DNA of 64,000 nucleotides from Leisingera sp. SS27 (GTDB taxonomy: Bacteria > Pseudomonadota > Alphaproteobacteria > Rhodobacterales > Rhodobacteraceae), in assembly GCF_028368855.1 (NCBI RefSeq), contig NZ_JAQNCY010000001.1:372001-436000 (forward strand). Reading direction: 5' to 3'. Below are positions 13,347 through 16,263 of the stretch, in pieces. A model generated the notes under the pieces. That model worked only from the letters and a program-made list of their open reading frames with translations. It was not told where the DNA came from and ran no database searches. A program made the position numbers and the translations under genes. How positions within the stretch are numbered: position 1 is the stretch's first letter; every line of letters starts with the position of its first letter.

Positions 13347-14120
13347 CTACAGCGCGGTCCAGCCGCCGTCGACGCTGATGGTGGTGCCGGTAATCTGCGC
13401 CGCCGCGTCCGAACACAGGAACACGGCAGTGCCGCCCAGCTGCTCCACCGTTGCGAACTCGCGGCTCGGCTGGCGCTCCAGCATCACCTTCTTGATCACC
13501 TCTTCCCGGCCCATGCCGTATTTCTCCATGGTGTCGGGGATCTGCGCCTCCACCAGCGGTGTCAGCACATAGCCCGGGCAGATCGCATTGCAGGTGATCG
13601 GCTCCTCAGCGGTTTCCAGCGCCACTGTCTTGGTCATGCCGACCACGCCGTGCTTGGCGGCCACATAGGCGGCTTTGTAGGGCGAGGCGGTCAGCCCATG
13701 CGCTGACGCAATATTTACGATCCTTCCCCAGCCTGCTGCGCGCATCTTCGGCAGCGCCGCCGCCATGGTGTGGAAGTTCGAATTCATGTTGATGGCGATG
13801 ATGGCATCCCACTTTTCCTGCGGAAACGAGTCGATTGGCGACACATGCTGGATGCCGGCATTATTGATCAGGATATCGCAGGCCCCGGCCTTTTCGATCA
13901 GCGCCCGGCAGTCGGCGCCCTTGGACATATCGGCCTGCACGTACTGGGCCTTGACGCTGAACTCACGGGCGAGTTCAGCTGCCAGCGCGTGATCCTCCTC
14001 CCGGTCGGTAAAGGAGTTGAGCACCACATTGGCCCCTGCGCGTGCCAGCTCTCGGGCCACCCCCAGGCCAATCCCTGAATTCGATCCGGTGATAACGGCG
14101 GTCTTGCCTTGCAATGTCAT
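13347..14120 (-). CDS. bdhA: 3-hydroxybutyrate dehydrogenase
   Basis: Short-chain dehydrogenase that interconverts 3-hydroxybutyrate and acetoacetate with NAD, the last step of polyhydroxybutyrate breakdown. Length is 257 residues. The cofactor motif TGSNSGIG is at 11-18, NNAG at 86-89, and the catalytic Ser139, Tyr152 and Lys156 are in NIASAHG and YVAAK. The C-terminal QITGTTISVDGGWTAL is the usual BdhA ending. The message may start near 14360 and pass a conditional terminator, or start within 14121-14256, where a PhaR-like site lies. Confidence 0.93.
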   Translation of the reverse strand: MTLQGKTAVITGSNSGIGLGVARELARAGANVVLNSFTDREEDHALAAELAREFSVKAQYVQADMSKGADCRALIEKAGACDILINNAGIQHVSPIDSFPQEKWDAIIAINMNSNFHTMAAALPKMRAAGWGRIVNIASAHGLTASPYKAAYVAAKHGVVGMTKTVALETAEEPITCNAICPGYVLTPLVEAQIPDTMEKYGMGREEVIKKVMLERQPSREFATVEQLGGTAVFLCSDAAAQITGTTISVDGGWTAL

Positions 14121-14256: not shown

Positions 14257-14330
14257 AAAAAAACGCCCGCACAAGGCGGGCGTTAGTTATTGAGGCAGGT
14301 TTCATACAGGCAAGAAACCTATCGAGCAGT
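14257..14330 (-). ncRNA. candidate small RNA (or bdhA leader attenuator)
   Basis: A compact RNA unit with no protein gene. Reading the minus strand, a near-consensus sigma-70 promoter is followed by about 74 bases. These contain a first hairpin (AGGTTTC/GAAACCT, 14301-14324 region) and then a terminator with a 9-pair stem (14262-14270 with 14276-14284, loop of 5) and seven Ts (14257-14263). The next minus-strand gene, bdhA, begins 137 bases later. The element is therefore either a stand-alone small RNA or a terminated leader of bdhA. It does not match a family I can name. The rest of the 319-base gap (14121-14439) holds a PhaR-like site and a hairpin at 14392-14406; I see nothing else. Confidence 0.6.
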
Positions 14331-14336
14331 GATCCC

Positions 14337-14365
14337 TTTATAAGCAATTTCCGGCTTTCGTCCAA
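14337..14365 (-). promoter_or_regulatory. sigma-70-type promoter for the candidate small RNA
   Basis: TTGGAC (14365-14360), a 17-base spacer, then TATAAA (14342-14337) on the minus strand. This is the best-looking housekeeping promoter in the window. Transcription would begin near 14330. Confidence 0.6.
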
Positions 14366-14439
14366 GCTAAAAGTTTGAAAAGACGAAAAAGCGCACGTAG
14401 CGTGCGGAGGCAAGAAAATAAGGGCAGAGCGGGATTGTT

Positions 14440-16263
14440 GTGAATCAGCGAAAAGAAAATTTCCGGACTCTTCGCGCGGCACTGGCTGGAATCACCCTGG
14501 CAGTTACCGCGAATTATGCGCTGGCAGAATCGGCCCATGGCATAGCTATGTACGGCGACCCCGCACTGCCACCGGATTTTGTGTCTTTACCCTATGCGAA
14601 CCCGGACGCGCCGAAAGGCGGCAAAGTTGTGTTCGGCAACACCGGAGGCTTTGACAGCCTCAACCCGTTCACCCTCAAGGGGACCACTCCGTGGCAGCTG
14701 AGGTTCTGGGGATACGAGAGCCTGATGGGCCGTTCCTGGGACGAACCGTTCACCCTTTACGGTCTTCTGGCCGAATCGATTGAGGTGCCGGAGGACCGGT
14801 CCTGGGTCGAATTCACCCTGCGGCAGGAGGCCCGATTCTCGGACGGAAGCCCGGTGACCGTCGACGATGTGATCTGGTCCTACGAGACATTGGGCACCAA
14901 AGGCCATCCGCGTTACCGCGGATTTTGGACCAAGGTGGAGACCATCGAACAGACCGGGCCGCGCAGCCTGCGGCTGACCTTCAACGTCGAGGACCGCGAG
15001 CTGGCGCTGATCGCCGGCTTGCGCCCGATCCTTCAGAAGGCGCAGTGGGAGGGACTGGAATTCAACTCCGATGAAATCAATGGCGCACCCGTTGGGACTG
15101 GAGCTTATGTGGTCAATGCCTATGAGCCCGGCCGCTTTGTCACCCTCACCCGCAACCCGGACTATTGGGGCAAGGACCTGCCCCTGCGCCTCGGCACCCA
15201 GAACTTTGATGAGCTGCGCATCGACTTCTTCGGCGATGAAACCGTGCTGTTCGAGGCCTTCAAGGCGGGCGAGCTGAGCGCGGTGCGCGAGTTCAATGCC
15301 GACAAATGGGACAGTGTTTACAGATTCCCGGCGATCAACCGCGGCGACGTTGTCAAAAGCGAGATCCCGCATCAGCGCCCTTCCGGCATGACCGGGCTGG
15401 TGATGAACACCCGCCGCGCACCGCTGGACGACTGGCGCGTGCGCGAGGCACTGCTGCTGGCCTTTAACTTCGAGTACATCAACGGCACGGTGACCGGCGG
15501 CACCCAACAGCGTATCTCCTCTTATTTCTCCGGCTCGGTTCTGGGCATGCGCCCCGGCCCGGCAAAGAGCAAGGTGCGGTCTTTGCTGGATCCCTTTGCG
15601 GACGGCCTGCTGCCCGGCACGCTGGAGGGTTACACCCTACCCCAGGGCGACGGCAGCAAACGCAACAGAGGCAACCTGCGCAAGGCGATGAAACTGCTGG
15701 CTGACGCCGGCTGGACCGTGACCGATGGGGTGCTGCGCAATGGGGAGGGTACCGCGCTGGACCTCAGCGTGCTGATCCGCCAGGGCGACGGCGAGATGAA
15801 GACGGTCACAGAAATTTACGCCCGCGCGCTGGAGCGGCTGGGCATCACCCTGACGGCTGAGACCGTGGACAACGCGCAATATGCCGAACGGGAGAACGCC
15901 TATGACTTTGATCTCACCCGGTTCCGCCGGGAACTATCGCTGAGCCCCGGCAACGAGCAGCGGTACTACTGGGGCAGCGACGGCGTGGATCAGCCCGGCA
16001 GCCGCAACCTGATGGGCATGGACAGTCCGGCGGCGGAGGCGATGATTGACGCCATGCTGACCGCTACGGAGCCTGAGGATTTCACGGCCGCGGTTCGGGC
16101 GCTGGACCGGGTGCTGACCGCCGGGCGCTATGTCATTCCATTCTGGAGCTTTGACACCGGCCGCATCGCCCACATCAAGGAGATGCGCTTCCCGGAGAAC
16201 CTGCCGATTTATGGCGACCGCACCGGGTTCATGCCGGACGTTTGGTGGTATCAGCAAGACTGA
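14440..16263 (+). CDS. ABC transporter substrate-binding protein, family 5 (YejA-like)
   Basis: Periplasmic solute-binding protein of 607 residues for peptide-type ABC importers. A signal peptide of about 29 residues ends near NYALAES. HGIAMYGDPALPPDF and YANPDAPKGGKVVFGNTG are typical of the YejA/microcin C subgroup, which binds oligopeptides. The start is GTG 14440; a stop at 14419 leaves no other good choice, and the ribosome site is weak. No permease or ATPase gene is adjacent, so it is an orphan binding protein that must use a transporter encoded elsewhere. A hairpin at 14392-14406 lies in its leader. Confidence 0.93.
   Translation: MNQRKENFRTLRAALAGITLAVTANYALAESAHGIAMYGDPALPPDFVSLPYANPDAPKGGKVVFGNTGGFDSLNPFTLKGTTPWQLRFWGYESLMGRSWDEPFTLYGLLAESIEVPEDRSWVEFTLRQEARFSDGSPVTVDDVIWSYETLGTKGHPRYRGFWTKVETIEQTGPRSLRLTFNVEDRELALIAGLRPILQKAQWEGLEFNSDEINGAPVGTGAYVVNAYEPGRFVTLTRNPDYWGKDLPLRLGTQNFDELRIDFFGDETVLFEAFKAGELSAVREFNADKWDSVYRFPAINRGDVVKSEIPHQRPSGMTGLVMNTRRAPLDDWRVREALLLAFNFEYINGTVTGGTQQRISSYFSGSVLGMRPGPAKSKVRSLLDPFADGLLPGTLEGYTLPQGDGSKRNRGNLRKAMKLLADAGWTVTDGVLRNGEGTALDLSVLIRQGDGEMKTVTEIYARALERLGITLTAETVDNAQYAERENAYDFDLTRFRRELSLSPGNEQRYYWGSDGVDQPGSRNLMGMDSPAAEAMIDAMLTATEPEDFTAAVRALDRVLTAGRYVIPFWSFDTGRIAHIKEMRFPENLPIYGDRTGFMPDVWWYQQD

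Follow-up and report, generated by a model that had tools for sequence, protein, structure and literature searches.

What an intrinsic terminator is doing in a gap where no protein gene ends is the question raised by the minus strand of Leisingera sp. SS27 between a bdhA-like gene and an ABC transporter gene, both of which start outward from the gap. A sequence-only reading of the window (the whole stretch of 64,000 nt that was analyzed) had proposed either a free small RNA in an hfq-bearing organism or a conditional leader of bdhA. The observation that neither flanking gene ends at the locus was borne out, and the stated 137 bases to bdhA agree with the coordinates 14257 and 14120. A minus-strand frame at about 35695 carries the Hfq-like motif NGVKLQG, so that the window probably contains hfq as well. 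The name bdhA follows the Paracoccus counterpart, whose product is given as '3-hydroxybutyrate dehydrogenase'.

Anatomy and conservation of the predicted small RNA

The features of the locus, in the order in which the minus strand is read and followed by the two neighbouring genes, are as follows.

14366..14381, minus strand, AT-rich conserved block TTTTCAAACTTTTAGC directly upstream of the -35-like hexamer, a possible UP element or regulator site
14360..14365, minus strand, -35-like hexamer TTGGAC, with its CTTGG part conserved
14337..14342, minus strand, -10-like hexamer TATAAA, separated by a 17-base spacer from the -35-like hexamer
14257..14331, minus strand, predicted small RNA of 75 nt, with the transcription start placed at about 14331 from the start of the conserved block, and with its end at the T run
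14290..14329, minus strand, 40-nt core CTGCTCGATAGGTTTCTTGCCTGTATGAAACCTGCCTCAA, identical in 187 of 199 loci (as a sequence word, CTGCTCGATAGG)
14314..14320, minus strand, 5' arm of the first hairpin, AGGTTTC, forming 7 pairs plus one U-G pair
14304..14313, minus strand, 10-nt loop of the first hairpin, TTGCCTGTAT, the putative first contact in pairing
14297..14303, minus strand, 3' arm of the first hairpin, GAAACCT
14295..14311, minus strand, segment that is antisense to element GCAGGTTTCATACAGGC of the UpsM/dcw leader
14262..14284, minus strand, intrinsic terminator hairpin of 9 pairs, followed by 7 T to 14257
13347..14120, minus strand, bdhA-like short-chain dehydrogenase gene (Pfam), the downstream neighbour
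14440..16263, plus strand, ABC transporter substrate-binding gene SBP_bac_5 (Pfam), the divergent neighbour

The arrangement TTGGAC-17-TATAAA was found where it had been read, at 14365-14360 and 14342-14337, and the conserved block of the small RNA begins with C/T-ACTG, 5 nt past the -10 box. The description of this promoter as near-consensus is too strong for the -35 box: TTGGAC shares no more than three of its six bases with TTGACA (hand count) and was not listed by a consensus promoter scan with a cut-off of 4/6. The case for a promoter is therefore its conservation and not its closeness to the consensus. Most positions of the AT-rich block (14366..14381) are kept in at least 90% of the 136 distinct loci, and the combined TTTTCAAACTTTTA-CTTGG block is conserved in most of these loci and absent in the divergent L165-L168. 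The TTTTCAAACTTTTA block itself (14366-14381, minus strand) is so strongly conserved that it exceeds the needs of a plain promoter. Further upstream, at 14392-14406 on the minus strand, a second short hairpin with a T run (CGCACGCTACGTGCG CTTTTT) was observed within the 5' region of the substrate-binding gene.

Both secondary structures that had been read, a 7-pair hairpin and a 9-pair terminator with seven Ts, were recovered, with the terminator ending at 14257. Seven of the nine terminator pairs are G-C, and a scan of 19 kb listed this site first among 21 that resemble terminators, against an average of 14.5 in shuffled sequences. The fold of 14331-14257 has an energy of -25.0 kcal/mol (z = -4.34), which none of 200 shuffles reached, and the loop of the first hairpin shows unpaired probabilities of 0.76-0.98. 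Judged by its sequence, the locus is an intergenic unit with its own promoter and intrinsic terminator.

Substantial constancy of the core was observed across the 199 loci, with one change in 11 of the loci that differ and six changes in the remaining one (G049); these loci represent 179 distinct stretches, some genomes having been retrieved twice, and all were found by similarity to the small RNA or via its neighbours. The promoter and both stems are kept in relatives. Compensatory changes, for which the sequence-only reading had proposed checking both stems, were detected in the terminator stem and not in the first hairpin, because the latter hardly varies. Six of seven counted terminator pairs show such changes, with 47 cells changed on both sides against 10.7 expected and a covariation score of 0.164 against 0.037 in shuffles, in a set of 62 diverse sequences picked by hand out of 109 whose tails differ. 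In the first hairpin only one cell deviates, which neither supports nor opposes its structure. The terminator stem is in this respect conserved as RNA, and the promoter-like block, the core, the terminator covariation and the family-wide presence described below strongly support the earlier proposal of a free small RNA; the locus is very probably a real one.

Distribution, gene neighbourhood and adjacent genes as targets

Rhodobacteraceae is a large family of chiefly marine and soil bacteria. The small RNA was found in 60 of the 61 Rhodobacteraceae genomes in a search of 101 genomes, in 384 of 394 genomes of the family in a wider set, and in 345 of 347 good ones (≥90% complete, ≤5% contaminated). 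Among 40 genomes from outside the family, 7 gave matches, all weak (E 0.0035 to 0.08): five cover the terminator, another the promoter region, and that in G072 covers 23 core bases; since these matches fall within open reading frames, they are probably due to chance. A single weak match, over the terminator, was obtained from phages.

Of 151 loci, 148 have the substrate-binding gene divergently beside the small RNA. A bdhA gene follows shortly downstream in 133 of them and is located elsewhere in 7, while the stretches of the other 11 yielded none. These bdhA counts carry a bias because 80 of the 151 loci were retrieved through the bdhA protein itself, all 80 of which (named loci) carry the small RNA, and some stretches are short. 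The nearest of these 80 are from Leisingera, in keeping with a window from that genus or close to it. In Paracoccus (L180, L181, L182), the same gene order occurs on replicons filed as plasmids, and the replicons with the locus measure 1.46-2.24 Mb (four records).

If the RNA were an attenuator or conditional leader of bdhA, the two should stay together. The gene shares the strand of the small RNA in 140 of the 151 loci, a count subject to the same retrieval through bdhA in 80 of them, which is what such a leader would show. However, the small RNA is unchanged where bdhA is not adjacent: in L094 and L106 the gene lies 1.5 and 1.0 kb downstream, and the small RNA is also kept in L165, L167 and L168, where no bdhA was found in the stretch. 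The invariance of the core is atypical of an attenuator, and pairing with the region around the bdhA start is energetically unremarkable, 22 of 300 shuffles doing as well. The bdhA leader proposed earlier is on these grounds very improbable.

The other neighbour invites a comparison with AbcR1 and AbcR2, which are alphaproteobacterial small RNAs acting on ABC transporter mRNAs and whose type is represented by families in Rfam. Like them, the predicted RNA would be a small Hfq-type RNA of Alphaproteobacteria, and it adjoins an ABC transporter gene; an AbcR-like silencer of ABC transporter mRNAs, including that of the divergent substrate-binding gene, would accord with the 148 adjacent loci and with a 10-nt complement, AGGCAAGAAA, in the leader of that gene in the window, where the duplex energy is matched by only 6 of 300 shuffles. 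Unlike them, it has no Rfam match and no conserved complement in the adjacent gene. Of 136 regions upstream of that gene, no more than 14 contain the 9-nt complement GGCAAGAAA (the reversed word is in 0 of 136), so the gene was rejected as a conserved target, and its silencing is unsupported as a conserved trait. The parallel with ABC-silencing small RNAs of Rhizobiales, drawn by the sequence-only reading, likewise gained nothing from Rfam: a scan of the window with Rfam 15 returned no family at gathering score. The 13 weak matches (RyhB, Trp leader, Hrs13 and others), all far below the cut-offs and most over the terminator, were taken as chance. We regard AbcR-like silencing as improbable.

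Complementarity to the dcw/mraZ leader

In R. sphaeroides, the dcw leader is reported to be 268 nt long and to be mostly terminated internally, yielding the Hfq-bound UpsM of 206 nt (PMC5089854). UpsM is described as a point at which cell division is controlled and as the most abundant small RNA, accounting for ~60% of Hfq-bound sRNA, with read-through past it of about 1 in 100 (PMC5089854; PMC8307010), and the long, terminator-bearing dcw leader as exclusive to Rhodobacteraceae (PMC5089854). The sequence GCAGGTTTCATACAGGC in this leader is the exact reverse complement of the loop and 3' arm of the predicted small RNA. In the window's genome, the element is located at C1:971047-971063, about 0.58 Mb from the small RNA gene (C1:386 kb against C1:971 kb). 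It corresponds to UpsM nt 53-70, in region R1, which Weber et al. describe as hardly conserved, and it is common to the dcw mRNA and its prematurely terminated product. UpsM is thus derived in cis from the mraZ leader, whereas the small RNA would be a separately encoded partner.

The 16-mer CAGGTTTCATACAGGC was searched with ≤1 mismatch and matched in 223 of 228 family genomes, with at least two copies in 155, one in 68 and none in 5 (hand count), where one match per genome is expected from the small RNA gene itself; the reversed 16-mer gave 1 match across the 228 genomes. Among 41 inspected sites outside the small RNA, 37 belong to the dcw leader, 29 of them recognized by an MraZ-like motif that follows and 8 by an UpsM context judged by eye, and 4 lie elsewhere. 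Leaders were also chosen through the MraZ protein, found in 57 of 61 family genomes, a choice independent of the element, which had already been seen beforehand in 11 of the 57. Two loci were left unparsed, and in the 55 leaders scored, one per genome, the element was exact in 26, with one mismatch in 14, two in 2, three in 4 and four to six in 9 (≤1 mismatch in 40 and ≤3 in 46), while the reversed and reverse-complement controls always had at least 5 mismatches.

The element stands out as an island, with a mean column identity of 0.96 against 0.50 and 0.51 in its flanks (ungapped), measured on 47 leaders with ≤3 mismatches, a selection that favours the element. Its most conserved part is the complement of the small RNA loop. 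It is A-flanked or A-rich and predicted to be largely single-stranded (mean unpaired 0.59), and no partner longer than 4-5 nt was found for it within 45 nt in the 47 leaders. The duplex between small RNA and leader in Leisingera has a computed energy of -46.5, matched by 0 of 1000 shuffles; in R. sphaeroides one A-C mismatch weakens it, and 16 of 1000 shuffled leaders were as good. The complementarity to this distant RNA is beyond chance, and pairing of the loop and 3' arm with the dcw/UpsM leader element is well supported by these comparisons.

Twelve further genomes, mostly divergent, were also analyzed, and MraZ was found in 10 of them. The leader of G449 has the usual element and that of G037 runs off its contig. 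Complements in a shifted register, to the 3' side of the small RNA core, were found in G426 (ATTGAGGCAGGTTTCA, 16 nt), G114 (TGAGGCAGGTTTC, 13 nt) and G447 (TGAGGCAGGTTT, 12 nt), with 0 of 200 shuffles as long in each case. Shorter runs are present in G373 (ATTGAGGCAG with ACAGGCA, 10 nt; 1 of 200 shuffles), G162 (TGAGGCAGG, 9 nt; matched by 11 of 200) and G034 (ATACAGGCA, 9 nt; matched by 6 of 200), and the leaders of G028 and G119 show no noteworthy stretch of complement, with duplex energies that beat 200 of 200 shuffles. For duplex energy, G114 and G449 were matched by 0 of 200 shuffles and the remaining divergent leaders by 2 to 7 of 200. Complementarity to a frozen RNA that is retained while the leader changes register would be difficult to account for if the two did not pair.

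The shared complementarity might instead be accidental, or kept by a common protein with no RNA-RNA pairing. No compensatory exchange between the small RNA and the dcw leader was found when looked for, as such an explanation would have it, and a protein constraint could freeze both RNAs; the lack of exchange is also accounted for by a core that hardly varies. Against it, dozens of genera share a reverse-complement identity of 16-18 nt at one and the same position, the control being close to zero, and the complement reappears in shifted register in divergent genera, which makes accident or a common protein improbable. G049, the genome with six core changes, has lost the leader element, and its leader pairs less strongly with its own core than with the common one, so compensatory evolution is unsupported there; the core changes and element loss read as joint decay.

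Other candidate targets were considered. A motB-like gene in G052 (L141:1000-1020, minus strand) has a 20-nt exact complement at its ribosome-binding site, and motB was rejected as a conserved target since no run in the 30 other motB loci inspected exceeds 8 nt. In G040, 22 of the 25 bases before the start of a small coiled-coil gene are complementary to the small RNA (hand count), and G022 has a similar site; homologues of the gene were found in only 9 of 61 genomes. These two sites (L154 CATACAGGCAACAAAGGTATCGAG and L155 TCATACAGGCAACAAAGGTATCGAG, ~1001-1026) lie directly before the start codon of a small protein gene with no Pfam match and are largely complementary to the 5' half and loop. 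Several Leisingera (L142, L143, L144 and L179 = G000:C25:72305) harbor a 16-19 nt complement, TATTGAGGCAGGTTTC, past the stop of a small frame and near the end of a convergent gene; these sites are possibly lineage-specific or due to chance.

Taken together, the locus is likely, on this comparative evidence, to be the Leisingera copy of a family-wide, trans-acting small RNA that pairs with the dcw/UpsM leader. Its transcription, its pairing in the cell and the outcome of that pairing are what we infer from the comparisons; it is probably Hfq-dependent, Hfq binding being deduced likewise.

Known partners of UpsM and possible outcomes of pairing

The closest known RNA in action is StsR, previously called RSs0827, from Rhodobacter sphaeroides. 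It binds UpsM and the dcw leader and promotes cleavage by RNase E, and UpsM cleavage in this species is already credited to it (PMC8307010; PMC8625941); no other RNA partner of UpsM was seen reported. Both RNAs are ~72-75 nt and pair with the UpsM/dcw leader, as reported for StsR and as computed for the small RNA. The suspicion raised by this shared partner, that the two are the same RNA, was rejected because sequence and locus differ: the published StsR probe (PMC11354728) maps to C4:858073 in G111, and the small RNA to C4:1443997-1444072 on the minus strand. G111 is taken to be R. sphaeroides from the exact probe match and from the coordinates of the RNase E cut and the element. With ≤2 mismatches, the probe was found in 4 of 394 genomes, one of which (L160) looks unrelated, a count that misses more divergent copies. 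The sites also differ, with StsR at about UpsM nt 13-23 (by eye) against nt 53-70, and the promoters seem to differ as well, StsR being reported under RpoHI/RpoHII and the -10 box TATAA(A) of the small RNA looking housekeeping.

The gene itself may have been seen before by others. Two RNAs of Paracoccus denitrificans with lengths of 80 and 84 nt, Intergenic 60 and Intergenic 134, from a set of 16 sRNAs confirmed by RT-PCR, are reported as expressed and conserved across Rhodobacteraceae (PMC5107571), and their size and family conservation suggest that one of them may be the small RNA. The literature also lists 79 R. sphaeroides sRNAs, which may include it under another name; guessed RSs/RSP numbers for the locus gave none in the literature listings, and six stretches of its sequence gave 0 matches in published papers. 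No report of its pairing with UpsM was found in the literature searched, though the 2021 NAR paper on StsR and UpsM may mention it. What is new here is the antisense match between the small RNA and the dcw/mraZ leader element.

The small RNA probably helps to control the cell-division genes, or else the leader holds the small RNA in check. In the first case, it would be made from its own promoter and end at its intrinsic terminator, and with Hfq its 10-nt loop would first touch the A-rich, open leader element, from which the duplex would spread into the 3' arm of the hairpin. Pairing together with Hfq would then mark UpsM and the dcw leader for an RNase E cut just downstream, and the cut would lower or tune dcw expression. 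An RNase E cut in UpsM is reported at genome position 694,720 (PMC6238624), and the element in G111 ends at 694,705, which places the cut ~15 nt downstream of the element, or ~6 nt if the distance is taken from 206 minus 130, with the two assemblies possibly slightly offset. In silico, occupying the element opened the cut region by >0.1 in only 7 of 47 leaders and closed it in none, so that the structural route reported for StsR was not reproduced. Removal of UpsM and the dcw leader coupled to RNase E is nearly an even call as the outcome. The position of the mapped cut, immediately 3' of the duplex, slightly favours it over the main alternative, a decoy role for UpsM.

In such a decoy role, the small RNA would regulate other mRNAs via its core while UpsM, produced in large excess at every firing of the dcw promoter, sponges it, and cleavage of UpsM in stress or stationary phase would free it. 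The abundance of UpsM and its rare read-through cited above (PMC5089854; PMC8307010) would suit a sponge. The 5' half of the core is as invariant as the rest, yet it is unaccounted for by pairing with UpsM/dcw; a whole core that is constant with half of it unused in this pairing points to further partners and speaks for the decoy. The core also stays constant while the leader site changes register, as if the leader tracked a hub RNA; the 130-nt UpsM product should lack the element, judged by position; and lineage-specific complements occur at ribosome-binding sites (L141, L154, L155). However, no family-wide second target was found among the candidates checked (motB and the small coiled-coil gene), and a decoy outcome is possible, though we lean against it.

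A broader reading, which we hold tentatively from the sequence comparisons, is that of a hub sRNA frozen over 40 nt across the family and wired to cell division, with mutual titration between it and dcw output. Every firing of the dcw promoter would free UpsM, which would either trap the hub RNA or be cut as a consequence of it. If this is true, StsR in Rhodobacter would be a lineage-limited stress input placed atop an older, universal circuit. Pairing with the small RNA would explain why an island of 16 nt is kept in the hardly conserved region R1 of UpsM, and a second, far more widely conserved partner of UpsM, with its gene next to one for 3-hydroxybutyrate dehydrogenase, could tie division to metabolism or to growth state throughout Rhodobacteraceae.
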